Positions 34,288 through 55,300 of a stretch of DNA of 64,000 bases are shown here, piece after piece. Source of the stretch: Volutella citrinella. Its lineage: Eukaryota; Ascomycota; Sordariomycetes; Hypocreales; Nectriaceae. A model generated the notes under the pieces. It worked only from the letters and a program-made list of their open reading frames with translations. It was not told where the DNA came from and searched no databases. Position 1 is the first letter of the stretch. The number at the start of each line of letters is the position of its first letter. Position numbers and translations under genes: made by a program. The DNA is taken from NCBI GenBank assembly GCA_034401135.1, contig JAWZSP010000009.1:620001-684000 (forward strand), read 5' to 3'.

Positions 34288-36223
34288 CTACGCCTTTGTG
34301 ACCTCCACCTTGGTCCTCTCCTCGAGGCCATACTCTGTTTCGAGACCCGTCCTGAGCGGAATATCCTTCGTAAACAGGGCCATGAGAAAGCCTAGACCGC
34401 TAAAGATGGCGAGAAAAGTAAACACGCGGTGCAGCGCCAGCGCAAAGACGTCGCGGATCTGGTTTTGGATTGGCTCTGGGAAGGCCGTGACGAAGGCCCT
34501 GGTCGCACTGCCATAGGCATCGCCTTGGCTGAGGTGGCTTCGGATGGCTTCATCGTCGATCATGTAGGCATACCGCCTGGTGTAGGTGTTCATGATGGTG
34601 CCCGCGATGGCGACGCCCCAGACACTGCCAAACGCACGAATGAAGCTCCACGTCGAGGTCGCCGCTGCTTGGTCCTTCTCGGCGAGGGACGCTTGGAACG
34701 CCGGCAGCAGTGTTGGGAGCAGCATTCCAATGCCAATGGCGGGCACGAGCTGGACGCAGATTGTCATGGCAAGGGAGCTGTGCCTGTCCATCAACACCAG
34801 GCCCGGAAGACCCACCGTCATGAGTAGTAGGCCGAGGGCGTTGTTGACCCTGTACTTGCCAAACTTGGCGAGCGCAATCGACGTCAGCGCAGCCCCGGGG
34901 AGGCAAATGAGCGAAATGGGAAGGATCTGGATGCCCGAGATGGACGGCTTCGAGAGCATGACTCCCTGGAAGAAGACGGGGACGAACATGAGCGTCCAGA
35001 AGCCATACATGTTGACGAAGAAGGTGGTGATATAGATGAGAATGGATGTTGGGCTCGGGAACAGGCGCAGCGGGACCACGGGCCTCGCTGGGATGCCCGA
35101 GCCTTCGAACAGGACGAAGGCGACGAAGCCGGCGAGTCCGATGATCAGTGGGCAGAGCACGCGAGCGTCGGACCATTCGTAGACGGGACCGGCCCATGTC
35201 AGCGCAATGAGGACGGAGACGGACGAGCCGATGAGCATGACGTTTCCAATGTAGTCAATCTGCTTGACCTTGTCCCAAGTCCTCTGACTCTTGTTGTAGC
35301 GCAAGTTGAGGAAGAAGTATGTCATAACCAGAGCGACGCCTGCGATGGGGAGGTTGAGGAAGAAGACCTAGCGACATTGAAGTGAGCAGTCTGTTCATGT
35401 ACAGCGTAGTCATGGTCCAGAGCAGCTTACCCATCGCCACGATGTTTTCTCGACAATGATGCCGCCAATAAAGGGCCCAATAGCGAAGCCAATGGCCGAG
35501 ATGCCATGCAGAATCGACATGTAGTAGCCGCGGTACCGCATCGGGACCAGATCACATACGATGACCTCGATCGACATCTGCAGCCCTCCGCCCCCAATGC
35601 CCTGGATAGCGCGACCGGCGATGAGCATAGTCCCGCTCGAGGCGCCGCCACTGATGCCGCTTCCGAGGAGGTAGGCGCCAATGACAAAGAGGAGGACAGA
35701 CTTGCGCCCAAACAGATCGCAGAGCTGGCCAAACATGGGCTGGACGGAGGAGCTATGACCAACGGTTGTTAGCTAGACAAGAAGAAGCCAGGTCAGATCT
35801 TTCCGACGTGCGCGCGTGGCTCACTCACCTGGCCAGCAAGTAGACGTTGGTGACCCAGATGTAGTTGCTGCCGAGCTTGAGCTCGGACGCGATGAATGCG
35901 AGGGACGTAGCGACGACTGTGCCTTCGAGGCAGACGAGGAGAATGCAGAGGCCGAGGATTGACATGATGAGCCAGAATCTGTAGTCGCGCTGGAAGGCTG
36001 GGGGTTTGGCCTCGTTGTCTAGGCTTGACGTGTCGGTCACGTCTCGATGAGAGGTTTCTATGACTGGAGATGAGGGCATCGAGTCTCCATCGAGATGAGT
36101 GGTTTCTATGATTGGGGACGAGGGCTTCGAGTCCTCATCGGAGGCGGATCCGGTTTCCGTGACCGGGGACGAGGGCTTCGAGTCTCCATCGTAGTCGGAT
36201 TGGTGCTCCGGAGGGGTCTCCAT
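34288..36223 (-). CDS. MFS exporter, DHA2 family, with repeated N-terminal tail
   Basis: Three exons, about 600 residues, ATG at 36221-36223. The first 50 residues hold three copies of a 16-17 residue unit with core DSKPSSP and ETxH. The transporter starts at FWLIMSILGLCILLVCLEGT (helix 1 with the DHA2 motif LEGTVVATSL), then NYIWVTNVYLL. Exon 2 carries GQLCDLFGRKSVLL (motif A), GRAIQGIGGGGLQM and IGFAIGPFIGGIIVEKTSWRW (motif C and exit loop). Exon 3 has the remaining helices (FVNMYGFWTLMFVPVFFQGV; LLPTLLPAFQASL). It is an antiporter of the drug/metabolite export type, probably in the plasma membrane. Between two Zn2Cys6 genes, it looks like the export part of a biosynthetic locus. Substrate unknown. 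Confidence 0.87.
36030..36205 (-). repeat. three-copy tandem repeat in the DHA2 exporter N-terminus
   Basis: About 51 bp units of imperfect direct repeat, coding for DSKPSSPVTET, DSKPSSPIIET and DSMPSSPVIET. The frame is kept. The unit is acidic with Ser-Pro sites that could be phosphorylated. Copy number may differ between strains. Confidence 0.7.
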
Positions 36224-36977
36224 TGATGAGTGGTTTGATTAGAGCTGAAAAGACGCGATGTGATCAGAGAGAGGAGCTAGTCGATTGAGCGCGCGCTTTA
36301 AGGGCGTTGCGTATCGTCATGTACTGTGCATCTGGAGTGCCTGTGTTGCACGCTGGATTTCAGGGGATATATGAAGCTGCATCAAGAGAGAAAGAGACGG
36401 AGCCTGTGGGAAATGTCCTGCTTGACCCTCCGAAGCCGAAACAGCTCCCAGATACGTTGCAACCTTCCGAAACCCATGATTGATGACTGATGGCCGGGGT
36501 TGTCAACGGACGGTTCTCTAATGGCACCGGCCCCCAACACTCGTGGCGCAAACAAGGCGCTGTTATTGCAGGTGGGCGGTAGGAAGGATTGGCCGTGCAA
36601 ATGGCCTTGTGGGGTTTGGGCCTAGCGCTGGGTTTGGTGGGATTTCCACGAGTCAGACACGAGGACTATCACTACTATCTGCTTGCAAATCTGCTGACAA
36701 TGAACCTTGACGGGGGTGTGGGGATTGCTGCTAACCCTCCGAATCCGAACGACCGATGATTTGATGACGAGTCCCAAGACGATTGATGAACCCATATTCG
36801 ATATACCTATTCACAGTATTTTGCAAGATTGACAACGTGTGTAGCTTCGGAGAATAACGCCTCGTTCGATACGGCGTATTATTCGGTGAATGCGCGAATA
36901 AGCCACGTCGCGTGCGCCCGAGTCGCCATCGCCGTCAAGCATCATGCAAGTCATTCCTGCTCTAGGCTACGCCACTT
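36224..36977. promoter_or_regulatory. spacer between the Zn2Cys6/MHR regulator and the DHA2 exporter
   Basis: A 754 bp promoter region for the exporter. Frames inside (63-72 codons) have no domain. CTCCGAA and its reverse recur (about 36428, 36469, 36738), but I cannot tell whether this is a binding site. Confidence 0.4.
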
Positions 36978-39573
36978 CTACGAAGGATCAAAAAGCCATT
37001 CGTCGGCTTGCATCATCTGGTCCATCCAAACCATCGGGTTCATAGCCCGACGCCTCTCCCTGTCGCCGTCAAATCCATCGCTCGCACCATGTGCGGCTGA
37101 CTGGTTCTGGTGGCCATCGGGTGGCTTTGGATCTGCAAAGCCCGCCACCGGCATACCTAAAAGAGAAAGGTACGACTCAATAGTATCCTCCATTTCGGTG
37201 CTGTCCTGCAGCGCTGCGGTGCGCGACTCGATGTGCTGCGCCGTCAACTTGGTCAGGATGTTGAACAGTCGCTGCATCTCCGATATGACCGTGGGGCCGT
37301 GAGTGAGTTGCTGCAGGGCATTGTTGAAATCCTCGATGCGCTTTGAATCAATTTGGTCGATAGTCTCGACGCTGTTGCAGACGAGTATGATGAAGGGAAT
37401 TGGGGCATAAAGAAGGTAGCTGTTGGTCAGTCAACAACGTACTTACACCAATGGTATGTTACGCTTACTTGTAAAGATAGTCTGGGTTATCTCCCGCTGT
37501 ATTTTCTAACAGAATGAAGTAGGAATGGATCTGGTCTAGAGTGGTTCGGGCATGCGTCAAGCACTGTTCGCTAAATGTGAAGCATTGTTCGCGAGACGTC
37601 TTTGGTGGCTCGCCCGGCGACGGTGGAGCGGCTCGGTAGATCAAAGTGAGGAGCGAGGACCTCACAAAATCCTGCGAGTGGACGAGAAGACGGAGCGGGT
37701 AGGCAAATTCGCAGCCTGGTGGCAGACCGCTTACTTCAATCTGGATTCTCGTTGTCAGCATCCTTCGTCCTAGCTTGCTGCAGCAAGGTGGAACACTAAC
37801 TGAGAGGGTGTCTATTTCTGCCTTCATTTCGTCCAATTGCCCCTGCAGGGTCTCCACGTTTCTCTGTCGCACATGATCCGGTTGAGATAGGGAATGGAGG
37901 CTATACAAGAGCTCAAACATGTTGCCTTGGCAGGAAGCAGCCTTTACGAGCAACGGCAAGCAGAATTGATACGGCTGGTACAACAACTGCCCTGGGAGCC
38001 TCTGCGGCAGAGGCGTCGTCAGATCCCAGTCTGGAAGCGTGGTAGGTCGCCCAAGTCGTAGGGACAGGCTCTTATCGGCGATGTACAGTGACCAGAAAAT
38101 GAGCTGTCGTTGGGTTGTTTCGTTTGACGCATTCTCTGGGGCGGCACTGCAGTGGTGGTAGCCAAGGGTTTGGCATATCTCCGAGGCCTTGACCAACAGA
38201 GACCACGACAAACCTGGCTGGGAAATGCTCAGTGTGTAATTGATCTACCAACTAGGTTAGTTCATGGCCATTTGGATCCCATGGACCAGCACTTACTCCA
38301 CAGACCAGAGCAAGGGCGGTTTCACACGTCGGTGGTAGGTATAGTGGGAGGTTTGCAAGAGTCATGTCGGTGTTTCTGCGACACATGTTTGAATACTCCC
38401 GGTACTGATCCTTATTCTCTTCCTCTGCCGCTGCACAATGCGCTTGAAAGAGGTAGTAAAGACCGACGTTGACCGCCAGGAAGTCGGTCTCGGAGAATTG
38501 CTTCGGATAGTAAATACTGAGGCAGAGGTCTGGAAATCGGTAGGCCTTGAATAATCCAAATAACCAAACGGTTCCAAGGGTGCGTTGGTCTATGAGTTAA
38601 GTGGATAGGGTTAGTAATATTGATAAACTTCTATTGTGCGACGAGCTTTTGACTCACGGGCCGGATCATGAATCAGCCGCAGAACTATCTCTATCGGTGG
38701 TAATTCATAGGCTTGTAAGGGCTGGCGTTGCAGCTTCATCGTGTTGGGATAGTAGGTGGGGTATACTGGGGTGGGTGGCAACCGGGATGGCCCAGCAGCC
38801 TGCTCCAGGGCATTCAGGAGGTTGTCAACCTCCTCCGTTGTAGAGACAGGGTTTCTGGAGACGATTTGCCGGACATATTCGTTTGCAAAGGCGGCATGCG
38901 CAGAAATGGTAGAGTCAGGCTCGGTGGATGAGGCGGCATTGCCAGGTTCGGGTGCCTGGGTCGGGAGCTTGACAGTGTGTGGATGGCCCCCCGTGGCGGA
39001 TGTTGCGCTATGTGGTGCCGAATTAGGCGACATGGAACATTTAAGCTCCTCGAGTATTTTTGTTACGCCATCCAGTCGACGGTCAATGTGGTCAAACTTT
39101 CGCTCGCTGTGGGGATGTGTGAGACAGACACTGCAAGCGTTAAGTGGTCTCAGTCAGGCAACTTACTACTGTGGGGTGAGAAGGATCCTGGTGCGCTTTT
39201 CTCTGGGCTTGGATGACTCGAGGGTGCATTCTATACCAATTTTTGAGCAGTAGGCGCATGGGAATTCTCGGTTACATTGCCTCTTGACAGTCACGGCATG
39301 TTAGGGTAAGTTGGGCGGCTGTGTTGTGTTCCCTGAGTGTCTCATACCTTTCGGATCCTGCAGGCGTCGCACTGAAAAGTACCTTAGTAGACGATATGGA
39401 GACGGATGAAGAGACCAGAAGAGTAGGCAGCATCTGGCTAGTGGAACAAGGGGGAGACTTACGGCTCGCGGCAGTAGTGGTCCGGTCCGGGATCCTAGGA
39501 CGTCTTCGCCGCCGCTTGGATCTAGTGTCGCCTCATCCATTGAGATGTCAGGATTGACGAATAGCCGCGTCAT
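36978..39573 (-). CDS. Zn2Cys6 transcription factor with MHR region and a 24-nt zinc-finger microexon
   Basis: About 700 residues in at least eight exons. The best start is ATG 39571-39573. Exon 1 (39573-39463, 37 codons) joins a 24-nt exon (39371-39348) that codes only CDACRIRK, which then joins 39282 with RQCNREFPCAYC and SKIGIEC. Together they form a perfect six-Cys cluster (spacing 2-6-5-2-6). A coiled-coil helix (FDHIDRRLDGVTKILEELK) follows for dimerisation. The middle-homology region has TLGTVWLFGLFKAYR, GLYYLFQAHC, KASEICQTLGYHH and FWSLYIADKSLSLRLGRP, as in fungal_trans regulators. The C-terminal exon ends WMDQMMQADEWLFD. It is divergent, 426 bp apart, from the ABCB transporter, so that is its first candidate target. 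Confidence 0.83.
39348..39371 (-). other. 24-nt microexon coding CDACRIRK
   Basis: A 24-nt exon between the acceptor TTTTCAG and the donor GTATGAG. Both neighbours join in phase 0 and the result is a perfect zinc cluster. Part of the regulator at 36978-39573. Confidence 0.75.
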
Positions 39574-39999
39574 ACAGTCCTCGTCTGGAATCACTCCGTT
39601 GGGAGTAAGACGCACAAACGACTCTCCGGCGGCCGGGTGTAGGAGAAGTCGGCCCCGACAAAGTTCCCGCTGTAATTATAGGCAGGTTGTCTGACACATC
39701 ACGTGGCTTGAAGACTGTGGGTCAGCGAGTGCCTGTAGCGAATCAGAAGCAGGATCGTTGTGCGGCGGAGGCCGAAGTGACCGCCGTCCGCAGTACGTAC
39801 TCCACAACTGGATCATGGGTGTATAATGCATTGGAACTGCCCCGATGAAATAAAGTCGGCCTCACCTTGTTTCTTTCTTCTTGTCCCTGTTCTAACTCAT
39901 CCGCTCCCTTTTTCTACCCTTCCTTTAATTGTCCTTTATTACCCAGTCGACAACTTTGTTTTCGCCCACACGGACCGTCACCACAATTCGGGATTCAGG
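39574..39999. promoter_or_regulatory. divergent promoter, Zn2Cys6/MHR regulator / ABCB transporter
   Basis: A 426 bp shared upstream region. A TATA-like GTATAATG (about 39819) lies about 175 bp before the ABCB ATG, followed by a pyrimidine-rich leader (39865-39950). CGG triplets near 39762-39789 are candidate Zn2Cys6 half-sites. Confidence 0.55.
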
Positions 40000-42900
40000 A
40001 TGGGCGACCCCAACGGAAAGGAAAAAGTAGCAGAAGGTGCTCAAATTCAAAATGCTGGTGGTCAGGACCTATTAGTTCCCGCCAGTCAATTGGCACAGGA
40101 TGACTCGCAACCCATTCCCCTGTCTGGAGCTGAAGAGCCGCAACCAAAGGGGACATACAGAGTGAGCGTCGCCCAAAGACAACTTCAAGCAATGGTGGAG
40201 TCCCTAACCGCTGGCACCTACAGAGAATTTTCCAATACGGTTCTGGAGTAGACCGTCTTCTGCAAGGTATCGCTGCCGTAGCAGCTGTTGGATCCGGCGT
40301 CGGCATCGCTACGCAGACTCTCATCTTTGGCGGCTTCATCACAGTCATGAACGACTTTGCTGCAGCCAAATCAAGCCCTGAAAAGTTCCGCAGTGACGTC
40401 GGCCACTTCGCGTAAGTCAACACTGACCCAGTCTCGGGTCCAGCGGGTTCCCACTGCTATAGGCACCTCTACATCAACTGACGCTGCTCTTAGTCTCTAC
40501 TTCGTCTACCTCGGCATCGCTCGATTTGCGCTCGGCTACATCTACAACTTGTTCTTCACATTGGCGGCACATCGAATCACCCGCAACATTCAATTCGCGT
40601 TCCTCAGCGCCGCTCTTCGCCAAGAGATTGCATTCTACGACATTGGTTCCGCGGGATCAATAGCCACGCAGGCCACGTCAAACGGCAGTCTGATCCAGGT
40701 TGGAATATCCGAAAAGCTTGGCCTTGTTATTCAAGGCATCGCGGGCTTCATCGCTTGCTTCGCCGTGGCCCTTGCTGTCCAGTGGAAGCTCACCCTTATC
40801 TGCATCTGTATTGCACCTGTGGCCTTCATTATCCTTGGCATCGCCGGGACCGTCCAGTCCAAGCTGTTCATCAAGATTATGGATGTCTCCGTACAGGGAA
40901 ACTCGTTTGCTGAAAACGTCCTGAGTGGCGTGCGCGTCGTGCATGCCTTCGAAATGAGACGGGCTGTGGTTGAAAAGCTCGAAGTGTACCTCAAGGAAGG
41001 GCACAAGATTGGCAACAAGTTGTCCGTGTCACTAGGCGTCATGTTCTCGTCCCAATTCACCCTCGTACAGCTCGGATTTGCTCTTGCGATGTGGCAAGGT
41101 ATCCGCATGCTTGACCGAGGGGAAATCCGCGAGACTGGCACCATGTTCAGGTACGTGTCCTACATTCGGACGATTTTCTAGTACTGATGAGGGTTCTCGG
41201 AATACAGTGTGATCATGGCCGTTATCCTAGCGTCTACCAGCTTGACGTCGCTAGGGCCACACATTGTAGACTTCAACCAGGCTTCCTCCGCGGCAGCAAA
41301 ACTATTCGCAGTCATCGACCGCGCGTCCGATATTGACCCATTCGTCGACACTGGGGATAAGCCAGCCACGATACAGGGCAATTTGGAGCTGGAAAATGTT
41401 CGATTTGCTTATCCTACCCGTCCAGATACCACTGTGCTTCATGACTTGTCACTGATGATCCCGGCGGGCCAAGTGACGGCGTTCGTGGTGAGTGCCGCCG
41501 ACAAACACGAAGCCATTCAGACACTAACTCGACCAGGGTGCCTCTGGATCAGGCAAGAGCACAATTGTTGGACTGCTTGAGAGGTGGTACAACCCACTTG
41601 CTGGGTCTATCAAGCTTGATGGGAGACCGCTTGACCAGTACAACCTCCGTTGGCTTCGAACATCGATACGCCTTGTGCAACAGGTACCGACAAATACCCA
41701 CGCTCGATTTGAACTAATACTAATCATCATCAGGAGCCTGTACTGTTCTCAGGCACCGTTTTCGACAACATTGTACATGGCCTATCAGGGACCGAATGGG
41801 AGGACGCTTCACGAGAGATTCAGCTGGAGAAAGTTCAGGACGCTGCCAAACTTGCCTTTGCACACGATTTTATTAGCGAGCTCCCGAACGGATACGACAC
41901 CGAGGTTGGACAGCGCGGCGGCCTCCTGTCAGGCGGGCAGAAACAACGAATCGCCATTGCACGCAGCGTTGTCTCGAACCCCAAGATCTTCCTCCTCGAC
42001 GAGGCGACCAGTGCCCTCGATCCCCATGCCGAAGCTATTGTTCAAAAGGCACTGGACGGCGCATCCAAAGGCCGCACAACCATCGTCATTGCCCATAAGC
42101 TTTCTACCATCCGGTCTGCTGACAACATCGTTGTGCTGAACAAGGGGCGCATCGTGGAACAAGGAACACATGTGTCTCTGATTGCGAAGAATGGAGCCTA
42201 CGCTCGACTTGTGCAAGCTCAGGATCTCTCGGTCCAGGCCGATCTCGACCAGAACGACAGTGTCACTGATGAGGACACCAACGGGGATGTTGTCGTCCAG
42301 GAGAAGATTGAGCGTGTCGAGTCGTTGGCTCGTCATCCTACCTCCGTCCAGACGTGGATGGAGCAAGAAAGGGAGCGGTATAACTATGATAGCCATGAGC
42401 AAATTTCCATGCTACCGGCCATCTCTCGACTTATTAGAGAAAATAAGTCCCTTGGTTGGGCGTATGCCTTTGCCTTCCTTGGCATCCTCGGAGCAGGTAA
42501 GTTGACAACCACACGACCACGGTTTCAGTCACCCTCTAACCCAGTACAGCTGCTGTTTATCCTGCCCAAACAATTGTCATGTCCAAGACTGTCAACTCGC
42601 TGAACCTCCCCAAGCCGCAGCTCACAGAGCGTGGAGACTTTTATTCATCCATGTTCGTCGTGCTTGGCGCAGGCTGCCTCGTGTCCTACTTCACGCTCGG
42701 ATATTCTTCCAACACCATCGCCCAAGAGCTCAGCCACAAGTATCGAAGGCAGATATTCAATGATATCCTGCGCCAGGACCTGCAGTTTTTTGACCGCCCT
42801 GAGTGCAGCATCGGCGCCCTAGCCAGCAGAGCGGACTCTTCGGTCCAAAATATCCTGAACTTGATGGGATTCAACATTGCCTTGATTGGCGTGGCAGTGG

Positions 42901-44413
42901 TCAACATCTTGGCTAGTAGTATCTTGTCTCTTGCGTACAGCTGGAGACTTGGTCTTGTTGTCATCCTGGCAGGCCTTCCGCCTCTTGTCGGTGCCGGCTT
43001 GCTCAAAGTCTGGTCAGACTCCAAGCTCGACCGACACTTTTCGGAGAGATACTCGGCTAGTGCTGCCATTGCTTCAGAAGCTGTAACTGCTATCCGCACC
43101 GTATCATCGCTGGCGGTGGAAAAGAAGATGCTGAAACGCTACGGCGCTGAACTGGATCAGGCTATTGTCGGGTCTCGGTCCTCCTTGTGTAGGCTGATGA
43201 TTTGGTTTGGCTTGATGCAGGCCATGGAGTACTGGTTTCAAGCTCTGGGCTTCTGGTAAGTGGCGCAACTAGACCCTGGCCATCTCTACTCACTTCTTAC
43301 CACAGGTATGGATGTCGATTGCTGTCTCTTGGCCAAGCAGAGCTAGAGTCGTTCCTTGTTGCCTTTTTGGCAGTCTTTTTCGCAGGACAAGCCGCGTCTG
43401 GCTTGTTCCAGTTCTCTACCAGTAAGTCTCGGAAGCTTGAATCGCATACTTGACGTTGGGAGCTGAACTGTTCAATCAGGTCTCACCAAGGGCTTGAACG
43501 GGGCCAACTATGTCTTTTGGCTCAATGGCCTTCAACCCACGATCCAACCCACTCCGGATAATAGCTCAAAGGGGCCGGAATCTGTTGATTCTCTTGCCCT
43601 GAACGATGTCCGCTTCTCTTATCTCCTTAGGCCGGATCACTCCGTTCTCAAAGGCGTGAGCATCGATGTGAGTAATGACTGATGAAGCATGCTAGCTCGC
43701 TCTGAGACTAAGTCGAATCGCTACAGGCAAAGAAAGGGCAGTTCCTCGCCCTAGTTGGGGCTTCAGGATGTGGTAAATCAACCATCATATCGCTGCTGGC
43801 ACGGTTCTATGACGTTTCCAGTGGCTCCATTACGGTCAACGGGTCGCCTTTACCCTCCCTCAACCCACAGCTCTATCGCCATCACGTCGCTCTCGTCCCA
43901 CAGGAACCGATACTGTTTGAAGGCTCTGTTCGTGACAATGTTGCCCTCGGCATTGACGATCCGGCGATTTGCAGCGACGACGCCCTTGAAGTTACCGATG
44001 CCACGATAGAATCAGCATTGCGTTCGGCAAATGCATGGGACTTCGTTTCCTCTCTTCCCGAAGGACTGGATACCAAGGTCGGCACAATGGGCTCCCAATT
44101 CTCTGGTGGGCAGCGACAGCGAATTGCCATTGCCCGCGCCCTCGCCCGCAATCCCAAGATCCTACTCTTGGATGAGGCCACCAGCGCCCTGGACACGGAA
44201 AGCGAAAGGATCGTCCAAAATGCAATCGATCGGGCTTCCAAGGATGGCCACAGGATCACTGTTGCCGTCGCACATCGTCTCAGCACGATCAAGGACGCGG
44301 ATGTCATCTTTGTGTTCCACGGGGGTCGCATAGTCGAGGCTGGCTCACACGCCGATCTTGTCGCACAAGGCGGCATGTATCTCAAGATGTGTGAGGCGCA
44401 AGCACTGTCTTGA
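40000..44413 (+). CDS. full-size ABC transporter, ABCB/MDR (P-glycoprotein-like)
   Basis: About 1,270 residues in roughly eleven exons; ATG at 40000-40002. TMD1-NBD1-TMD2-NBD2. The first splice (ATACAGA|GTGAGC to CTACAG|AGAATT) restores [17 protein letters not shown]1: [35 protein letters not shown] and IAHKLS. NBD2: [47 protein letters not shown] and VAHRLS. Both sites look intact and catalytic, unlike the ABCC protein above. The linker (about 600-680) is acidic and contains the degenerate tail of the first half. Fungal ABCB proteins pump hydrophobic compounds, a-factor-like lipopeptides or toxins out of the cell. It may protect the producer or export the product of the neighbouring cluster. 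Confidence 0.92.
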
Positions 44414-45101: not shown

Positions 45102-46614
45102 TTACTTGCTCTGTTCCGTCCGACTCCTAAAACCCCAACCATCCTTCGCAACTCTGGATGCCCCGTGAATGAAGGATCCAACCAACATAACGATACCAGC
45201 CCAGATCCAGGCTGCTTTGTAACCAAATCGATTCAATAGTGCCCCTGCAATAGGTGGCCCAAACAGGAATGCGACTGAGAATACCGCAAAAGCCATTCCA
45301 AAACGCGTCCCAACCCATGCCATATTCTTTGTTGAGCGGGCAACGACGGTGGGTAGCAACGCAAAAAAGGTGCCAGTTCCGAATCCGTAGACGATAACGG
45401 CAACAAGAATGCGAGGAACTGACGTAGCTGTAGTCATACACAGGCTAGTGATCCCGAGTAGGGCTCCCGTCACCACAATCATGTTCATGGGCCCCAGCTG
45501 CTGGGCTAGAAGGATCGGAAGGATACGGCCGAAAATAGAGCTAGAGTTCAGAATCGCGAGCATGTAAAATGTCAGATCCGCGCTCGCTATTTTGTTCTTG
45601 AGTGCGTAGCTCTGGACGTAGTTGAATGGCGTGTATAGGCCGAGGAAAAGGACAAAGCATCCAAGCACCAGCAACAAGAATGGCAAGTCCTTGAAAGCTG
45701 CTTTGTCCACCAGAGCGCGCCTTTTCTGTCCTGGCCTGGAGCGGGGTTTCAACGTTACGTTTGCCAGGATCAGCAAAACGAAGAGTAGCAAGGTGACGGC
45801 TCTGATTGCCCAACCGAGCCCTACCTGGGCCTCGAGGCGCTTGATCATGATGGGAAGGACAAGTCTTTGCTAATTAGCAGTGATTTGGAAATCGGAGATG
45901 AGAACTTACCCCCCCAACCCACTCCCTGATGCCGCGATGCCATTGGCAATAGGCAATTTGGTAGTGAACCATTGTGCTGGAACGGCAACAGATGGAATGG
46001 AGAGACACCCGGCGCCTATTCCGACTACCAAACCTTGGGTGAGAAGGAAATGCCAGTATCTTGTGCAGAAGCTCTGTATAAGAGTCCCCGCAAAGATGAG
46101 AATGGACCCAAAGCCCACAAGATGCCGAGCGTATCCTGAATCGAATATTGGCCCGGTCACAAATCCGAGGAACACCATGAGAAATATCTGAAGTGAACCG
46201 ATAATGGAGATGTGGAAGGAATTGCGGCTAATCAGGATTCCAGTCTCATAGATGGCCTGGTAGGTCCCGAAGCTTGAGACCAGGCCTGGAGATGGAGTCA
46301 GTAAGAAGCCTGCACGGAAGTAAAGTCTCGTAGATGAACCTACCCCAAGTGTTGAAATAGATGCAAAATGCAGCGACAATTTGCAACCATGCCTGAAGCC
46401 CGCCATTTGGCGGAGGCGGAGGAGTAGCAACCGGGGTGCTTGGCGCAGATGCAGGCTCTGAGCCTTCAGGGTCTGAGGCTGCGATTTTCTCTTCATCCCC
46501 CCGTGGTTGTTGTCCTTGTGTGCTCAGGGGAAGCTGGCCGGAATTGTGGTCAATTGGATTTGGCGGCGACATGACGAACATGTTGTGCTCCTTGCGCTCG
46601 TCTTGATGTGCCAT
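45102..46614 (-). CDS. MFS transporter, monocarboxylate-transporter-like (MCT)
   Basis: Three exons, about 460 residues; the real start is ATG 46612-46614. The cytosolic head ends in the Pro-rich STPVATPPPPPNGGLQAW, typical just before helix 1 of fungal MCT-like proteins. Then come LQIVAAFCIYFNTWG, VSSFGTYQAIYETGI, GSLQIFLMVFLGFVTGPIFD and QGLVVGIGAGCLSIPSVAVP, and a second half ending in GAALLNRFGYKAAWIWAG-like helices. Members move monocarboxylates, riboflavin or metabolites across membranes, and they are frequent in fungal metabolite clusters. It lies 1.7 kb from the isocyanide synthase on the same strand. The substrate is not known. Confidence 0.82.
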
Positions 46615-48306
46615 GGTGAAGTTGTGTACCACAGGCTCACAGATCCCAGAGTCCTTGGCTGCTGGAGGTTTCGCCTACCAGAGTTGGGATTCCAGACAAC
46701 GTGACTCGGCAACTACCTGGAGTCTGGCAGGGCACCCGGCTGAGACAGACTATGCCTTCCCCTCGTTGCTTCTTTTGGGTCGGCTACCTCCGAAAACTGA
46801 CAATCGTGGCTGACATGAGAAAGCAGATGGGCTGGGTCGGTGGAGAGTGGGATAGCGAGTTATAGCAGAGCGGAGGATTGATAATCAGAGGCTAATGCGG
46901 CAGATGAACCGATGCGAGCAGGGTTCAGGGCATTTAGCCGAGGGTGTGTGTATATGACTGCGTGCAATCGAGCTGCCTCTTGTGGGCCCCGCATCGGCCC
47001 AGCTGCCGCAATGGAGCATTGCGTTGCGTGGCATCTGGGGACATGCAGGAACCTGGAAGCCTGAAACTTGGGCCGGCGCGGTTAATCCATGGCTGCCATC
47101 ATCACTACCATGTCGATTTTTTGCGGTGTGGATCTCACTCCCCCACAGGGCTATACGGTAGGGCCACGATTGATGCTCTTGAGGCTTGAGTAGGGCCGTC
47201 TTGGCAGGAGGCTGATGACGCCTTGGCTCCATCTACGGAGAAGTTGACTCAATGGCGCGTTACGTATGTGTGGCCTGGATACCTCGAACACCTAGTATAT
47301 TGTTTCACGGTGGCAAAACTCGTGCATAGCAGGCTCGAACACCCTGACACGAACATCTCCTTTCTCCATAATAATGCTGGACGTGCGGGTCTTTGCCGCG
47401 CGGGACGGGAATCGGTTCGGCTCATAACATGCCATGGAAAAAACGGAAAAATTGCACCTTTTACGTAGCCGAGGCTTCGATAGAGCGGTGACGTATATGC
47501 TATCCCTCCAGTAGCCTGCAGATGCGGCATCAGTCTGGCCAGGTTAATGTACCTTGTCATTGATGTTAGGTGAAATGCCACATCTCAATGCTAAGCACTA
47601 GCAGTCTATATTGTATATACTATTTCGGGCACATCATTGACTGTCTGAGGCGATTGTACTGTCGTGTATGGCGGGCAATCAACCTGTCCCCCCTTGCCAT
47701 GCAACCCAGCGCCTGAAAAGTGTTATTGTTACGGCATTGGGGCTGTATCCCACCAGACGGCCGAATTAGAGCCATTTCTGGTCGCATCAGAGCTTGCTTG
47801 AAGTCGACATGATGAATATGAGGTTGTGGTGTGACAAGATGAACCCCCGACTAGCGCCATCTGATAACAAGTAAGGCGATGGCAGGCTAACGGCTTTCAA
47901 ACTTTTTGGGTTTCGACCCGGGATAGGCGGTGTCTCCCGTCGGATCCCGCCTACCGGGCCTGAGACGATCTCGTACGAGGCTGGCGGCCGAAGCGGAGAA
48001 ACACCATGCCCCATTCGTTGGTTGAGCTCGGGCAGCTCGGATGTGAGTGGGAAATTGACTGCATTTTTTCGCAATGCACCCCAGTTTTTTATTTCCGGCA
48101 GGGCCTATCAACTTGAAGCGCGAGGAAAATAAACTCATCGAATGGATACACTAAACACTGCAATAATATGGAACTCCATCGTCACTATCTTCACACCCGT
48201 CGGGCTGTCATCCCGCGCCTTGCAGGCCTCTGCCCTGTCATACCACGCGCCGTCTTCACGTGCAAATCACTCTCTGTGCAGGGATGACATGCGGCAGTTG
48301 GTTCGT
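46615..48306. other. long intergenic region between the MCT-like gene and isocyanide synthase
   Basis: About 1.7 kb without a supported gene. Frames of 66-115 codons on both strands have no domain. The left part is the promoter of the MCT-like gene and the right end is the 3' flank of the isocyanide synthase. No transposon features were seen. Confidence 0.45.
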
Positions 48307-50431
48307 CTAGTCAAAGTGGATGCGCCAAAGCTCCCGATCGCATCCTGCAGTGAAGTCGCTGCGCGTGTGCATCGCCAAGATGTTGTCACTGACGATAATG
48401 TCACCCTTGTCCCACGCGTGATAGTAAGCCACGCGGCGGTCATGCATCGCCGAGGTAATCGCTTGGCATATGGCGGTGCTCTCAGCTTCGTTGAATCCGT
48501 CAATGGTGATGTTTGTGGCGTCAAACACGGTCTTGGACTGCGGCCACGGCTCGTGGAATCGCAGGCAGGGCTCGTTCGTGGTGGGATGAGACATGATCAG
48601 GGGTAGACCCGTCATCTTGGTGGCGTTGAAGGCTGTGGTGGACACGGACCAGGTAAACTGGGATAGCTTCTCGACGGGCAGCCACCGGGGTAGGTTTCGG
48701 AAGATGAGCGGCGAGGAGGAAAAGAGGGTGAATCCGGTGTCCTTGGGAGACGACGTGACACCTTCAAAGAACTGGAATCTATCGAGTCAAGTCAGCATCG
48801 TGTCGCAGATTCATTGTAGACGCCATGGCCGCATACCGGGGAGGGTTTGGAAGCAGGCGCTCAGTCCCGTCTTCACCCTTGACTGTCATGGTCTTGAACA
48901 AGCCATCAAAGTGAAACGGCATCCACTCAGCCGAGAGCACATTGTTGAGCCCCCGCGTGTCGGTTCCCTGGTCCTTGACCTCGAGCACTAGGCCAAACTT
49001 CCACGGCAGAGGGGTGCCAAACTCGTCTGCCTTCTTGAGGAAGAGGTCGCGATCCGGCACCTTTCCAAAGCCGCGCAGCACGACGGGCGAGTTGATCTCG
49101 GACAGGGCACGGACCTTGGGAGCATCCACGTCCTCGATCGTCAGGGCGCCCTTGCCGGCAGTGGGCCGGATGATGAGGCCGCATGGGTAGACGGGTTCCA
49201 CCGTGATGCCGCCCTTGTCCTCTGCCCAAGTGAGCAGGGGCGACTTCTCGCGGAAGTAGCTGGGGCGGCCGTCTTCGTGGACGAGCTCGAGGCGCTCATC
49301 CTTCTCAAAGTCGGCGCGCATGGCGCTGAGCACGGTGCCGTCGAGCATGTAGGCGACGCTGCAGTGCCATGGTGTGGTGTAGATGGTTGTGGTCGGGAGG
49401 AGGCTGACGGAAAGCTTGAAAGCCCCCGTCGAGGGATGGATGGACAGGCGGATGTGGTCCCCGTACACTTGTTTGACAGCATTGGCAAATGCCTAGATCA
49501 ATTAGCCGAGTATTGATAGCAGGGAATCAGGAGTCGTTGCGTACATCACCACGGGAAAGCATCTGCTTGGCAATGTACTCGATGCCCTTCTTGTACTTGC
49601 TCTTGGAGCGATTCTCGCCTTGCGGATACACGTCTTCCAGGTCCGTCTCGAGGAACTTGATGTAGCCGCGATATGTCATGCACACGTCCTCGCTCTGGAT
49701 GAGCTTCTTGTAGTCCCAGTCCGGGTTGCTGAAAGTGTTGAGCAATGCCCGTCGGAAGTTGGACGCATTGGCTGTGTACGTCATCTCGTCGAGCTCATCG
49801 GGAAGCGGGATGGACACAAGGTCTCGAAGTCGGGAGAAGGATATCCGGTCGAGACCTTTTGCCTTGGCGAGGGCTCTGAGGGCTTCACCATATGCCCACA
49901 CATCCTTGTCTGAGACCCCGAGGAGATCTTGAAGAGATTAGAGAACGTCTCGGCATGATTTGAATGCATAGACTCACCATTGTAAACGAGTCCATCGGAA
50001 ATAATTGTCAGCTTGGCTCCAGGGGGATACACATCCTGGATGGCTAGGCAAAGGCCGTCAAGAACCGAAAGTGCCAGCGCTTCGGCCCTGTCTGGTAGTT
50101 TGCCCAGGACCTTTGTCCTCGAGTTTGGGGACTTGAAGGGGAATGCCGGCAGACACATGGGAATCGGGCTTTGGGTCTTGACATGGTTGTAGATGATGGC
50201 GAGGAACTTGAGAGCACCTTCGTCGGCCTTTGAGGGTGCATTGGTGGACTTGTTGAGACGATATCGATCAATGATGTGAAGGATCTTGGAGGAGAGCTCC
50301 AGGGCTGGCGTATCGATCGTGCCGGTCAAAGCACCCGTCGGCACCACCAGCACTGGGGATGTTGGAGGCTCAACTGCGTGCTTGGTGACGGGTGGCACCT
50401 GGACGGACTGGACTTCAACGGCAGAAGGCAT
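48307..50431 (-). CDS. isocyanide synthase fused to a TauD-type dioxygenase
   Basis: Four exons (50431-49978, 49927-49545, 49492-48837, 48778-48307) with introns of 50, 52 and 58 bp join to 1,965 nt, exactly 654 residues plus stop. The N-terminal half is of Dit1/PvcA type: FPFKSPNSRTKVLG, LPDRAEALAL, YPPGAKLTIISDGLVYND and LLGVSDKDVWAYGEALR. This enzyme family joins an amino acid nitrogen to a pentose-derived carbon to make an isonitrile. The C-terminal half is a TauD/TfdA-like Fe(II)/2-oxoglutarate dioxygenase: SEINSPVVLRGFG, the metal motif WMPFHFDG, and a late AMHTRSDF with LWRIHFD. The same order of domains is known from xanthocillin-type fungal isocyanide synthases. It shares a 1.35 kb upstream region with the flavin monooxygenase. 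The amino-acid substrate cannot be read. Confidence 0.9.
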
Positions 50432-51778
50432 CTTGCTTGTCCACAAACCTCAATGAGATTGAGCAGATTGGGATATGCGAAGATGAGTGATGGGGATATA
50501 TCAAAAGAGTCAGGATAGTGAAACGCCGAAAAGATGTCGTATGTGATCTCGACGATCCTTTTGATGGTGCAGGGAATGGTGCCAATTTGAATAGAAGCAA
50601 ATAGAGATCTCAATAGAGCAGGTGGAAGAAATATAAGTATATGCAAGTATGTATTCGAATGTGAAAAGGCTACGCACTGTCACACCTAGCAACCCATGGG
50701 CAGGGTATGTCTTGCGAACTCCGACCCTCTGTGGGTACCCAAGGTCATCACGTGACACCCATCATCGCAATCGCCAAGAGTCCTCCAATGAGATGATCCC
50801 TCTCGTAGCTGCTTAAAGGAGACGTTCCAAATGCCATAACGGATCTCCAAGTCTACAAAGGTTCCAGACATAGGGCCGAGCCACCGCAAGTTGACAATGG
50901 TGTACACACCCTCCCGGGCCACATGGTCGGAATTAGACGAAGCGTCCTTGGAAGATGTGCGTACCCCCAGTCCGACTGAAACTATTCATTTGCCACGCAT
51001 ACAGACTTGGAAGCTGCAAGTGGTCCGATGCAGCCTATAGCAGACGCATTGCATAATAGCGGACGAAAGTGCCCCGCCTAGGACCAAGGCGGCGACGCGG
51101 CAAAGCAACCACCGCCACCGTTGACGTGACTCGAGGTCAGCGGAATGAGCATGCCCGGGGCCGTTTTGGAAAAAATTATTTTATCACTCATGACCTGACC
51201 AGGGATGCTAAGCACTCATCAGTCGATGCAGTGAAACCGAGGTCCAAACGCGGCGTGGGTCCTGGCGCTTGGGGATTCGTCTCGTCTTTTTCGTTTGTCC
51301 AACCTCGCGCCAGGAATTGGGCCAAATCCTGGCTGATAAGGTGCTTACCAATTGCCAAATGTTATCCTAAATGGGCAGTCAAAGACCGGAAGCCCTCGGG
51401 ACGACTGCCGAGTAGCCTTGCCGGCGCGCGCGCGGCCGGGTTGACCCTCAGCTGAATACGATAACTGGGCAGGGCGGCAAATGCACACCCCCCCTCCCCG
51501 CCCCCCCTCTTCTTCCCCACAACCCTGACGCGGCTCCATGTCGGTGCCAGAGTGATGGACAAGGGCCCATAGAAACAAGGAAGGAGGTTTAGAGATTTGC
51601 AACGGCACTATCCGTGCTACGGCTTGTGTGTCGTTTATGGCATGAGCCGATTCAACGAGCCGGGCAGTGTGCCGGTCAATATGATGTTGATGACCGCCGG
51701 CTGTTGACGCAGTTCGAGCCGTGCCGAGGTCATCTTGCGTTCTTCTCAAGAAAAAAAAACATCCAATTCATTTTCAAA
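50432..51778. promoter_or_regulatory. divergent promoter, isocyanide synthase / flavin monooxygenase
   Basis: A 1,347 bp shared upstream region. On the isocyanide synthase side a TATA-like string (ATATAAGTATATG, about 50630-50642) lies about 200 bp upstream of its ATG. A C-rich tract (CCCCCCCTCCCC-like) lies at about 51486-51510. Small frames here have no domain. It is the best place to look for sites of the local Zn2Cys6 regulators or of a metal-responsive factor. Confidence 0.5.
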
Positions 51779-53540
51779 ATGGGCTCAATTGTGTCTAGCA
51801 GTACGGATAACGTCACCAAAACGGACATGGAAGTAGATGTGGCCATTATTGGTGGTATGTCCTTACCCGGATGAGAGTCAAAGCAATGTGCCGTGTTGAC
51901 TGAGTTTAGGTGGACCAACTGGTCTCTTTACCGGCCTTCTTCTACACCGTCTTGGTGTCTCAGTGTGCATCTTGGGTACGTTGAGAGGATTCAATTGACA
52001 AATTGGTGCTGAAGGGTCACAGATGCAAAGGAAAAGAGCCTTGACCTTGGTCGTGCCGATGCTCTCAACGCTCGAACGCAACAGTATCTTGAGGTTGCCG
52101 GGCTCTTGGACGAGCTCCTCGACCAAGGACTAAAATGCAACAGTAGGTGTCCATCTCAGAGTCATGAGAACCTTGCCTGACAAAAACAGCGAGCTCTACA
52201 TTCGGTGAAGGCGAGTTCAAGTCGCGCCAGAACAAATGGTGGGTTGGCCTGGAGCACACGCTGCACAAAAACTTCCTCATGATCGGCCAGCCGGTGGTCG
52301 AGGCCATGATGAGCAAGCGCCTGGAAGGCCAGGTCCACTACAGCCAGACTGTGGTCGATGTGTCCGAGACCGAATCGCACGTTGATGTCACTACATCTGG
52401 TGGGCTCAAGATCCGCAGCCGCTATGCCGTTGCAGCGGACGGAGCCCGTTCTGCCGTCCGGAGTGCGTTGGGCATCAGCTTCACTGGCACCAAGCCCGAG
52501 ATGCTGTGGGCTGTCATCGACACCTTCATCGAGACCGACTTCCCCAGATGCCCGGAAATCATCACATTTGAGGTCAACGGCCAGTCTCGAGTCTCGTGGA
52601 TTCCTCGAGAGCGTGGTATGGCCCGCTTCTACACTCTGCTGGAAGGCGAAGTCAGCCTTGAGCTCGCACAAGAGTCCATCAAGACACACATGGCGCCACA
52701 CAAGATCGAGTTCAAGGAAGTTGAGTGGTACAGTACCTTTGATGGTGAGAATCCCAGAAATACATTAAGTCTGTCGCATCGCGGTACTAACAAGTCGCAG
52801 TCAAGGAACGCATTGCTTCATCTTTTATCTCCAAGGACGGCAATGGTCGTATCCTTCTCGCGGGCGACGCCGCACACGTCCACAGTGTCAACGGCGGCCA
52901 GGGCCTGAACACTGGCCTGGCTGACGCATTCGCGCTTGCCTGGCGTCTGGCTATGGTAATCAAGGGCGACGTGCCAGTTGGCAGCGCCAAGATGCTCCTG
53001 TCCAGCTACGATCTAGAGCGTCGGACCACGGCCAAGGGTGTGATTGACGTGGCTGCAGCTTTGGTGAGAGACACGGTCCACGAAGCAAAGAAGTACGTGT
53101 CTACAATTGAGCGCAATGCTGGCTACATTACGGGCATGGGCGTGTCCTACGAGGGGTTCTCGTCGCCTTTTGTGGTTGAATCTACTCAGGGTATCTGGAA
53201 GGCGGGTGCCAGATGCCCCGACATGGTCATTACGACTGTAAAGTCGAATGAGCCCAAGCGGCTGTACTCCGTGGCTGAGTACGGCAAATTCATCCTTCTG
53301 TCTGTTGGCAAGCGTCAGAGCTACGACACGAAGTACGACAAGTTGGCGACTTCCATGACCATCTTGCCTGGAGGCGAGGGCGGGGAGAAGGAAAATAATG
53401 AAACAGATGAAACTGTTTTCAAGGCTGATTGGGTTGAGTCAGGCGATGACTTTGTTGTCGTTATCCGTCCTGACATGTATATTGGATATGCTGGGTCGTC
53501 AGAAGGATCGACCCAGTACTTGGACGGCTTGTTTTTCTAG
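51779..53540 (+). CDS. class A FAD monooxygenase (phenol hydroxylase-like)
   Basis: Five exons, about 500 residues; ATG at 51779-51781. The first three exons are small and rebuild the FAD site: DVAIIGGGPTGLFTGLLL, then GVSVCILD, then LGRADALNARTQQYLE. The GD motif is ILLAGDAAHVHSVNGGQGLN, followed by GLADAFALAWRLAMV. The C-terminal part ends in a thioredoxin-like region (FVVVIRPDMYIGYAG), as in the phenol 2-monooxygenase / PHOX group. It is an NAD(P)H-dependent hydroxylase or epoxidase of small, often aromatic, substrates. Divergent from the isocyanide synthase, so it is likely to be co-regulated and to tailor the same product. That role is inferred. Confidence 0.87.
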
Positions 53541-54280
53541 TTTGTTTTGTAGATTATTGTTAATAAATGTTGCAAGATGCGAGTAAATGGACCCGATGCT
53601 TTTTTTTGGAGCACAGAATAGGCCTAAACAAATGTAAGCGACTTGAAGCCAATGCTCCGTCACTAACCCTTTCATACGCGGGTTCAGAATCCCTAAATAA
53701 CCGAAATCTTCTTTTGATTGGTTAGGTACACATTGCAACCCAGCTGATAAGGGAAAGCGTTGAATCAAGTCAGATACAGGAGTTACGCGGATTCTGCTGA
53801 CGGTGATCATTGATGCGACGGTGAGACCTAAGTTAGTGCCCGCGTATCAACGTGGGGCAGGGAACTAAGGGATGACACCATCGCAAATGAAATCTCGCCC
53901 TGACTGCGGCCCTCATCGATGCAGAGGAATTGGGGTTGTCAGGGTGAATACGTGGATTGAAGAGGGCCGTTGTCCAATGCAGTTCTACCGATCGACCAGT
54001 TAAAAGACAAGCTGACATTCATCTCCTCCGCTGTATACGAGCATCTGCAACTGGCAATTGCAATTGGTGCAGGCTAAAATATGCTGACCACTTTGATTCA
54101 TCATTACCGGCTAGCTTTCCGAGTCCGCACGGCAACCTCCATGACAAGTCATTGCATTGAATTGCCAAACTATAAGAGGAGAGCTTGCTCAGTGTTGACC
54201 TTGGGTCCTCCCAAACTTGCACCCAACACCTGATGTATCCCTTGTTTTACTAGAATTTTCCACGATTGGCCCTTATCTCC
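53541..54280. other. spacer upstream of the enoyl-reductase-like gene
   Basis: A 740 bp intergenic region. A TATA-like AACTATAAGAGG (about 54168) lies about 110 bp before the next ATG. A GGTTCAGAATCCC string at about 53680 resembles a tRNA B-box but has no partner. No gene seen. Confidence 0.5.
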
Positions 54281-55300
54281 ATGTCTTTGAACGAAGCTGC
54301 CTGGCTTACAGCCATCAAGGCCAGACCCCTCCAAGTCAAGGAAGCCCCAATGCCGACACCAGGAGAAGATGAGATTCTCATCAAGAACCACGCCATTGCT
54401 GTCAATCCCGTTGACTGCATGCTTCAATCGTACGCAATAATGCCGCTCCAGTACCCGACCATCCTAGGCGAGGACGTTGCCGGTGAGGTCGTCAGCGTCG
54501 GCCCCAACGTGACTCGGTTCAAGGCGGGCGACCGTGTTCTTGGCGTTGCGCTGGGATGGGGAACAGGACGCAAGGAGGAAATGGCTTTCCAAAAGTATAC
54601 CATCCTCACCGTGGATACTGCCAGCGAGATTCCGGACCATGTCTCGTTTGAGAATGCAGTCGTTGTTCCGCTTGGCCTCTCGACTGCGGCCGTCGGTCTG
54701 TTCCTCTCCGACTACCTCGACTTGCAACCACCCACGGAACCCAGACAATGTTTTCACGGCAAGGTTGTTCTTGTTTGGGGCGGCTCCTCCAGTGTTGGCT
54801 GCAACGCCATCCAGCTCGCCGTCGCAGCTGGATATGAAGTCATGACGACTGCTTCGCCAAGGAACTTCTCGCTTGTGAAAGAACTGGGTGCCTCTCAAGT
54901 TTTTGATTATCATAGCCCGACCATCGTCTCGGACCTTGTCGCTGCGGTCCAAGGGAAGACTATTGCCGGTGCACTCGATGCCATCGGCCCCGGCGGTTAT
55001 GAGCACTGCGTTGAGGTTGTCGCGAGATGCGAGGGAGACAAGCGAGTTATCACGACGGTACCAAGCGATTACAAAACACCGCAGGGTGTAGTGACAAAGG
55101 TGATTTATGCACCAGCCATAGTGGGAACGCGAGTGGGCAATGAGCTGTTCCACACTTTTGTACCACAGGGTCTCAAGACTGGGTCCTTCGTTCTAGCGCC
55201 AGAACCTTTGGTTGTTGGAACCGGTCTGGAGAGCTTGCAAACCGCCATGGACACGCTACAAAAGGGAGTGTCGGCTCAGAAGGTCGTCGTCACATTGTGA
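54281..55300 (+). CDS. medium-chain reductase, trans-enoyl-reductase-like (ToxD type)
   Basis: An intronless gene for 339 residues, ATG at 54281 (the longer frame starts from TTG). The MDR fold is clear: PGEDEILIKNHAIAVNPVDC, QYPTILGEDVAGEVVSVG, FKAGDRVLGVALGW and the nucleotide site VVLVWGGSSSVGCNAIQLA, then GYEVMTTASPRNF and LGASQVFDY. The zinc-binding cysteines of alcohol dehydrogenases are absent, as in fungal enoyl reductases that act in trans with synthases. Here no PKS is nearby, so it probably reduces a double bond in another kind of intermediate, perhaps one made by the isocyanide synthase. It follows the flavin monooxygenase on the same strand. Confidence 0.85.
   Translation: MSLNEAAWLTAIKARPLQVKEAPMPTPGEDEILIKNHAIAVNPVDCMLQSYAIMPLQYPTILGEDVAGEVVSVGPNVTRFKAGDRVLGVALGWGTGRKEEMAFQKYTILTVDTASEIPDHVSFENAVVVPLGLSTAAVGLFLSDYLDLQPPTEPRQCFHGKVVLVWGGSSSVGCNAIQLAVAAGYEVMTTASPRNFSLVKELGASQVFDYHSPTIVSDLVAAVQGKTIAGALDAIGPGGYEHCVEVVARCEGDKRVITTVPSDYKTPQGVVTKVIYAPAIVGTRVGNELFHTFVPQGLKTGSFVLAPEPLVVGTGLESLQTAMDTLQKGVSAQKVVVTL

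Follow-up and report, generated by a model that had tools for sequence, protein, structure and literature searches.

Within the window, the 64,000-nucleotide stretch of the Volutella citrinella genome that we analysed (C9:620001-684000), a minus-strand gene at 48307..50431 encodes a fusion of an isocyanide synthase (ICS) with a TauD-type dioxygenase, hereafter ICS-TauD. A preliminary description of this DNA had placed the fusion in one frame of 654 residues; the length of 654 aa holds, but the gene has four exons and its frame is interrupted by three GT-AG introns (49977-49928, 49544-49493 and 48836-48779 in our splice model), and use of an alternative acceptor for the first intron would give a protein of 648 aa. 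The claim of a fused isocyanide synthase-dioxygenase is itself confirmed by Pfam matches of the spliced protein to DIT1_PvcA (residues 80-348, E = 1.1e-97) and TauD (residues 493-651, E = 9.2e-20), that is, by PF05141 followed by PF02668 in a single protein, the arrangement that defines the class. Alignment to PIsnB delimits the Fe/2OG desaturase domain as aa 376-653. AMP-binding matches are absent from the protein, so it does not have the crm-type ICS-NRPS-like architecture.

Database proteins P0001 (72% identity with 100% query coverage) and P0002 (74% with 94% coverage) are the top matches to ICS-TauD, both far beyond chance. By sequence, its nearest solved relatives are PvcA, PIsnA, PIsnB and PvcB, and its predicted fold (model pLDDT 82.8) matches 3e59 (3.8e-22), 9dhm (5.5e-21), 3eat (2.5e-16) and 7tcl (3.0e-16). 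We conclude that the protein is full length and that both of its domains are intact. The fusion as such is not a novelty, as both domains are present in all of the best 120 of 639 homologues (read by eye), and ICS-TauD proteins make up 36.2% of fungal ICS proteins according to passages of PMC10153163.

Divergent from this gene, on the plus strand at 51779..53540, lies a gene of five exons (four introns) for a group A flavin monooxygenase of the phenol hydroxylase/VibO-like type, 518 aa long, or 520 aa with another acceptor for the last intron. The protein matches FAD_binding_3 (6.6e-62), falls below the cut-off for Rng_hyd_C (24.8 vs 27.5 bits), and passes the whole-protein cut-off for the lycopene-cyclase Pfam family (28.3 vs 23.4 bits), with no single stretch passing. 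It retains the GXGXXG, DG and GD motifs together with the catalytic Asp, Tyr and Arg expected of the phenol hydroxylase branch of group A. The nearest solved relative is VibO (7yj0, E = 1.3e-46), the vibralactone oxepinone-forming flavin monooxygenase, which ring-expands a phenol (PMC10257657). VibO residues R97, D99, I279, R287 and Y289 are kept as R58, D60, I225, R233 and Y235, whereas the pocket residues F265 and A366 are replaced by I211 and G305, which argues that the substrate differs from that of VibO. VibO is also longer, at 653 aa, has a C-terminal peroxiredoxin-like domain and acts on a prenylated substrate.

Two further genes flank this pair. On the minus strand at 45102..46614, three exons (two introns) encode a monocarboxylate-transporter-like MFS protein of 469 aa (MFS_1, 2.6e-27), and on the plus strand at 54281..55300 a single exon encodes a CipB-like zinc-binding MDR oxidoreductase (ADH_N, 7.3e-15) that resembles enoyl reductases and has top homologues at 60-62%.

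Conservation of the synthase and flavin monooxygenase pair

To score linkage, we counted homologues of the two divergent genes as linked when they had the same species label and a contig of the same length, and read neighbour status from locus-tag numbers. Among the best-listed matches, ICS-TauD and flavin monooxygenase homologues share a contig in 43 of 59 checkable rows, which cover 28 named genera and a further two records whose names stop at order or subclass. Locus-tag numbers are adjacent in all 16 genomes legible in both lists (by eye), and three of the 16 rows without a shared contig also have adjacent tags. Distances among the synthases and among the monooxygenases are correlated (r = 0.889, a value reached in 0 of 2000 permutations), a correlation that also reflects shared species history. 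The flavin monooxygenase was thus correctly assigned to the synthase in the preliminary description. The pair occurs in many Sordariomycete genera and at least one Eurotiomycete, and we conclude that it is widespread, not peculiar to the V. citrinella genome, and that the core of the locus is a divergently transcribed ICS-TauD and flavin monooxygenase pair of a known, common kind. The 1347 bp between the two genes (50432..51778, coordinates from both splice models) are probably a bidirectional promoter.

This taxonomic spread resembles that of GCF 6 of Nickles et al., which passages of that survey treat as ICS-TauD and place in Eurotio-, Sordario-, Leotio- and Dothideomycetes and one Basidiomycete (PMC10153163). 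The same passages name 'lycopene cyclases' among the core genes of fungal ICS families, a term that may be compared with the lycopene-cyclase match of the flavin enzyme in the window. From spread and description, rather than gene content, the locus may correspond to GCF 6. Our literature search found no work joining an isocyanide synthase, a dioxygenase and a flavin-dependent monooxygenase.

The transporter proposed earlier as a member of the set is plausible on the strength of its Pfam match and of four database gene models in which an MFS protein like that of the window is fused to the synthase or the flavin monooxygenase. The window protein has 62% identity with the MFS portion of a Paramyrothecium gene model that also contains the ICS, and 50.5-51.4% with the MFS portions of three Fusarium flavin monooxygenase models. 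The joined partner is the synthase in Paramyrothecium and the flavin gene in Fusarium.

Membership of the enoyl-reductase-like gene, also claimed earlier, found no such backing. Comparison of the best 120 matches per list (13 named rows by script and the remaining named rows by eye, the latter sharing no species with the ICS list) gave three shared species, Stachybotrys elegans, Thozetella and Neoarthrinium, and the enoyl reductase and ICS homologues lie on different contigs in all three. Although three species make a weak test, this CipB-like gene probably lies outside the conserved set. Conserved linkage of the neighbours is thus supported for the flavin monooxygenase, with no sign of it for the enoyl-reductase-like gene in these three species, and the proposed cluster is trimmed to the synthase, the flavin enzyme and probably the MFS protein.

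Active-site residues and proposed pathway

The TauD domain of ICS-TauD carries H-X-D...H ligands and an arginine for the substrate carboxylate, residues whose roles are known from PIsnB (passages of PMC9467999). Among the 120 best-listed homologues, the Fe ligands H473, D475 and H635 are conserved in 120, 120 and 118, respectively; the carboxylate-binding R650 is kept in 117, as is W443. Vinyl-isonitrile-type desaturases have K/R at PIsnB position 107 and N/H at position 188, according to the same passages. The corresponding residues here, K479 (K/R in 117/120) and H573 (H in 120/120), are those of a PIsnB-type vinyl isonitrile desaturase, and with both published selectivity positions so occupied we predict a vinyl isonitrile product. 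The rule is correlative, because single substitutions at either position reportedly left the product unswitched (PMC9467999).

Two bacterial systems are instructive here. PIsnA and PIsnB of the rhabduscin pathway, with PvcA and PvcB the closest solved folds, have these ligands and vinyl-isonitrile selectivity residues in common with the window protein; the solved structures show the bacterial enzymes as two individual proteins, and in the window protein their counterparts are fused. The pvcABCD genes for paerucumarin in Pseudomonas likewise combine a synthase and an Fe/2OG enzyme with a flavin ring hydroxylase, PvcC. In PvcB, however, the two selectivity residues are L and C, against K and H in the window protein, and PvcC belongs to a different flavoenzyme class from the monooxygenase described here.

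We propose, with a probability of about 0.7, that the locus encodes a small isonitrile pathway leading from tyrosine through 4-(2-isocyanovinyl)phenol to flavin-dependent oxidation of the ring and export. The synthase domain would convert an aromatic amino acid and ribulose-5-phosphate to a 2-isocyano acid, in keeping with the Tyr/Trp and ribulose-5-phosphate chemistry given for this synthase type in passages of PMC7949033. L-tyrosine is the most likely substrate, judging from the relatives of the synthase and the phenol-type monooxygenase beside it; tryptophan or another amino acid is possible. The fused TauD-type domain would then remove the carboxylate and desaturate the side chain to give 4-(2-isocyanovinyl)phenol, and the group A flavin monooxygenase would oxygenate the aromatic ring of this phenol, forming a catechol or expanding the ring by Baeyer-Villiger oxygenation, before the product is exported, probably by the MFS protein. 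The suggestion in the preliminary description that the product may be a new isonitrile goes further than sequence alone can decide.

Relation to known isonitrile pathways

The pair could instead make the entry intermediates of the Trichoderma cyclopentyl isonitriles (dermadin, trichoviridin and the isonitrins), with flavin-driven opening of the aromatic ring of a decarboxylated tyrosine vinyl isonitrile followed by five-membered re-closure. We consider this assignment unlikely, though several observations agree with it: both genes are present in Trichoderma species, among them T. virens with homologues P0022 and P0135, and share one contig in T. citrinoviride (P0102/P0197), the C9 formula of dermadin is that of tyrosine after loss of CO2 and gain of the isonitrile carbon, and the solved enzyme nearest to the flavin monooxygenase ring-expands a phenol. 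A tyrosine origin of these compounds was also deduced in a labelling study that dates to 1981 (Baldwin 1981, cited in passages of PMC10834931). We found no gene assignment for them in the literature, of which our coverage was incomplete, and one may exist. However, the pair is linked across 28 named genera, and most of the genera that bear it are not known as makers of cyclopentyl isonitriles. It is similarly doubtful that the two-gene core serves generally as the first stage in making ring-opened isonitriles from tyrosine, with the Trichoderma compounds as the known example and the flavin enzyme opening or expanding the ring. Flavin-dependent opening or expansion of the aromatic ring of a vinyl isonitrile is not described for isonitrile pathways in the literature passages that we consulted. 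If the pathway proposed above is right, a single conserved pair would account for isonitrile formation in dozens of genera and would allow a direct genetic test of how Trichoderma makes its tyrosine-derived isonitriles.

Control of the locus by Mac1, with a copper-responsive chelator (chalkophore) as its product as in crm, appears improbable. Isocyanides bind copper, the A. fumigatus xan and crm clusters are copper-responsive (passages of PMC5974471), and the shared promoter contains two TGAGCA hexamers (the reverse of TGCTCA), but a uniform-base calculation predicts ~0.66 for the two strands of these 1347 bp. In F. oxysporum, which has a homologue of the flavin monooxygenase (P0208, P0216), Mac1 ChIP-seq yielded 12 regions corresponding to 16 genes, including the crm cluster, and the targets named in the passages of that report include no ICS-TauD and no flavin monooxygenase, some targets being given as numbers only (PMC11563359).

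XanB of the A. fumigatus xanthocillin pathway is, by its description rather than by alignment, an ICS-TauD with the same two domains, proposed to form the same kind of vinyl isonitrile (passages of PMC5974471). The fusion therefore does not distinguish the locus from xanthocillin clusters; the contrast drawn in the preliminary description, the missing P450 and hydratase, agrees with our search of the window. None of the 104 PF00067 matches (92 of 221 first-look candidates scored) and none of the 8 PF01965 matches of the isocyanide-hydratase type (DJ-1/PfpI) lies in the window, so counterparts of XanG and XanA were not found there. The xan cluster encodes this P450 and hydratase and the methyltransferase XanE (passages of PMC5974471), whereas the window has a flavin monooxygenase and an MFS protein. 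The XanC motif AGTCAGCA (passages of PMC8406171) is absent from the shared promoter and near expectation in the window (3 vs 2.48 expected; 3 reached by 45 of 100 shuffles). Least probable of all, then, is a xanthocillin-type cluster with its P450 and hydratase encoded elsewhere, even in a genome with at least 104 P450 matches, since the conserved partner of ICS-TauD is a flavin oxygenase instead.

The expectation that common cluster finders overlook such loci is true in part: ICS clusters were missed (PMC5974471, PMC9381783), yet an isocyanide cluster has been found by software (PMC11719821), and antiSMASH now appears together with 'isocyanide-nrp' in 11 papers. Elsewhere in the V. citrinella genome, an ICS domain is continuous with the N-terminus of a PDR-type ABC-transporter, and the C6 paralogue of the ICS has AMP-binding located downstream.

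The fused isocyanide synthase-dioxygenase

In the 45.1-Mb assembly (26 contigs) that carries the window as C9:620001-684000, a splice model with three GT-AG introns placed the isocyanide synthase (ICS)-TauD gene at 50431 to 48307 (-), encoding 654 aa, or 648 aa if the other first acceptor is used. The spliced protein was matched by both Pfam profiles, DIT1_PvcA at residues 80-348 (1.1e-97) and TauD at residues 493-651 (9.2e-20), so that the fused gene announced in the preliminary description is genuine and complete. The closest solved proteins by sequence are PvcA (8.3e-33), PIsnA (2.1e-31), PIsnB (5.4e-21) and PvcB (1.1e-19). In the AlphaFold model we used, which was built on a 36-sequence alignment (pLDDT 82.8, pTM 0.85), the predicted fold has these same four proteins as its eleven top PDB matches, with other 2-oxoglutarate enzymes ranking after them.

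This fusion is ordinary among fungal ICS proteins. Both domains, read by eye, are present in all of the best 120 of 639 homologues (E 0.001); ICS-TauD is one of three standard architectures in fungi, at 36.2% of ICS proteins (PMC10153163), and the same make-up is seen in A. fumigatus XanB and IcsB (PMC5974471). Among the top matches are proteins of Clonostachys rhizophaga, with 72% identity over 100% of the query, and of Stachybotrys elegans (Stachybotryaceae), with 74% over 94%, followed by more Hypocreales among the matches listed. Introns and relatives mark the genome as fungal, and these top matches make a hypocrealean host probable. Extra domains occur in two ICS-TauD models from the database: PF12706/PF23023 in Tolypocladium capitatum (P0012) and PF13577 in Fusarium longipes (P0072). 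They are probably joined adjacent genes and hint at further tailoring enzymes.

The metal ligands of PIsnB are H101, D103 and H250, and R265 with W74 anchors the carboxylate; makers of vinyl isonitriles have K/R at position 107 and N/H at 188, where isocyanoacrylate makers have L and C, and single changes at either selectivity position leave the product unaltered (PMC9467999). By alignment, PIsnB H101, D103, H250, R265, W74, 107 and 188 correspond to H473, D475, H635, R650, W443, K479 and H573 of the window protein. At the two selectivity positions, PvcB has L and C. Among the best 120 of 639 homologues, H473 and D475 are kept in 120, H635 in 118, and R650 and W443 in 117 each; K or R occupies position 479 in 117 and H573 is found in 120. 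From these residues, the TauD domain is predicted to catalyze a decarboxylative desaturation that yields a vinyl isonitrile.

Linkage to a divergent flavin monooxygenase

The neighboring gene at 51779..53540 (+) contains four introns and encodes a group A flavin monooxygenase of 518 aa (FAD_binding_3, 6.6e-62), or 520 aa with the other last acceptor. Linkage was assessed by comparing species labels and representative contigs between the synthase and flavin homologue lists (best 120 each; 118/120 flavin rows entered, two rows without species being omitted). A species label was common to both lists for 59 synthase rows. In 43 of these, both enzymes had a representative contig of the same length; the 43 rows represent 28 named genera plus two records with names at order or subclass level. 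Representative contigs were unlike in the other 16 rows, three of which have adjoining locus tags all the same (F. venenatum FVEN_g6517/g6516, Neoarthrinium JX265_012885/012886 and F. lateritium ACHAP8_007582/007581). By eye, tag numbers were consecutive in all 16 genomes legible in both lists (AK830, as in AK830_g6625/6626, NLG97, PWT90, HIM, QQS21, ACJ41O, FSARC, Fc.00g, F66182, F53441, IL306, ACHAP8, JX265, FVEN, FLONG3 and PRK78), and these counts bear out the earlier proposal of this enzyme as the partner. The tags of a second Hirsutella pair are seven apart on a 26,295-base contig, and a flavin partner for AK830_g7197, a second Neonectria synthase, was not found among the flavin matches listed. 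Pairwise distances of the two enzymes correlate (r = 0.889, 0/2000 permutations; 44 proteins each, the 43 rows plus the window), which is consistent with co-inheritance yet mirrors species history as well.

The top solved relative of the flavin enzyme is VibO (1.3e-46), ahead of 3-hydroxybenzoate, rifampin and phenol hydroxylases. VibO forms an oxepinone by oxygenation of a phenol, a reaction explained preferentially by Baeyer-Villiger chemistry in the original study, and also forms a catechol (PMC10257657). Counted along the alignment, VibO R97, D99, I279, R287 and Y289 are R58, D60, I225, R233 and Y235 here; R58 is nearly invariant and the other four are invariant among 31 aligned flavin enzyme sequences. 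In contrast, VibO pocket residues F265 and A366 are replaced by I211 and G305. The sequence would fit a phenol as substrate, and thus perhaps a compound derived from tyrosine, that differs from the substrate of VibO.

Neighboring genes and promoter sites

The MFS gene at 46614..45102 (-) is homologous to the MFS parts of joined gene models, with 62% identity to that of a Paramyrothecium model joining ICS-TauD and MFS and 50.5-51.4% to those of three Fusarium flavin gene models. We take the joined ICS-TauD/MFS and flavin/MFS models to be annotation fusions of adjacent genes. The enoyl-reductase-like gene at 54281..55300 (+), previously counted in the cluster, is CipB-like; its best homologues are 60-62% identical and those named are mostly from Eurotiomycetes, Leotiomycetes and lichen fungi. 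In none of the three species common to its list and that of the synthase do the two homologues share a contig, and we tentatively leave it out of the set. The reported absence of a P450 holds for the window span, where no match was found (92/221 candidates scored), nor was a DJ-1/PfpI match found within that span. Before the MFS gene, positions 31248-44413 contain a flavin reductase, Zn2Cys6 and fungal transcription-factor genes, a TRI12-like MFS and ABC transporter exons, possibly a separate small metabolic cluster; no tie was found between the genes at 31-44 kb and the synthase/flavin pair.

The site of XanC, from the A. fumigatus xanthocillin cluster, is not enriched in the window (3 vs 2.48 expected) and does not occur in the putative shared promoter at 50432..51778, which contains two Mac1-like hexamers (about 0.66 expected by arithmetic). 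The F. oxysporum Mac1 targets, some given by number only, include the ICS-NRPS-like crm system, and none is named as the pair (PMC11563359).

Proposed pathway and other ICS loci

From the observed genes, residues and linkage, we infer a pathway in which the ICS domain would convert tyrosine to a 2-isocyano acid with ribulose-5-phosphate, a carbon donor of ICS enzymes (PMC7949033). The TauD domain would then form 4-(2-isocyanovinyl)phenol, which the flavin enzyme would convert to a ring-oxygenated isonitrile for export by the MFS transporter. In the Pseudomonas pvc system, a catechol is made by a flavin enzyme; the pair would be functionally alike in this respect, whereas its predicted desaturation is of the other type.

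Nickles et al. describe GCF 6 as an ICS-TauD family in four Ascomycete classes and one Basidiomycete (PMC10153163), and by this description the pair may correspond to it. The "lycopene cyclase" that these authors give as a core gene may be the type of flavin enzyme found here; this enzyme passes the whole-protein Pfam lycopene-cyclase cut-off. That the pair serves the cyclopentyl isonitriles of Trichoderma seems unlikely; these compounds have been deduced to be tyrosine-derived (PMC10834931), and a gene assignment for them was not found in titles and abstract openings, subscription journals lying mostly outside the search.

Profile matches placed a second ICS domain and an ABC transporter on another contig at about G000:C5:148835-155613, with a joint exon at L011:1858-2847 (also L010:5385-6347). 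A single ORF holds PF05141 (residues 4-72) and PF14510 (residues 136-220) in uninterrupted frame, and the ICS domain is thus predicted to be continuous with the N-terminal domain of a PDR-type ABC transporter. Downstream frames match ABC_tran and ABC2_membrane_7 above cut-off and ABC2_membrane and PDR_CDR slightly below. ICS-ABC is not among the three architectures named in PMC10153163; a transporter domain is reported as an addition to Dothideomycete CrmA, and alpha/beta hydrolases have been described beside CrmA homologues (PMC9381783). On either side of the ICS-ABC gene lie an MFS transporter that matches TRI12 (L010:297-2102, -) and an alpha/beta hydrolase (L011:7763-8947, -). A third ICS locus, at G000:C6:2616107-2617064 (L009:4667-7247), looks like a CrmA-type ICS-NRPS-like gene because an AMP-binding match (PF00501) lies downstream, and the genome therefore seems to hold three ICS genes, each of different architecture.
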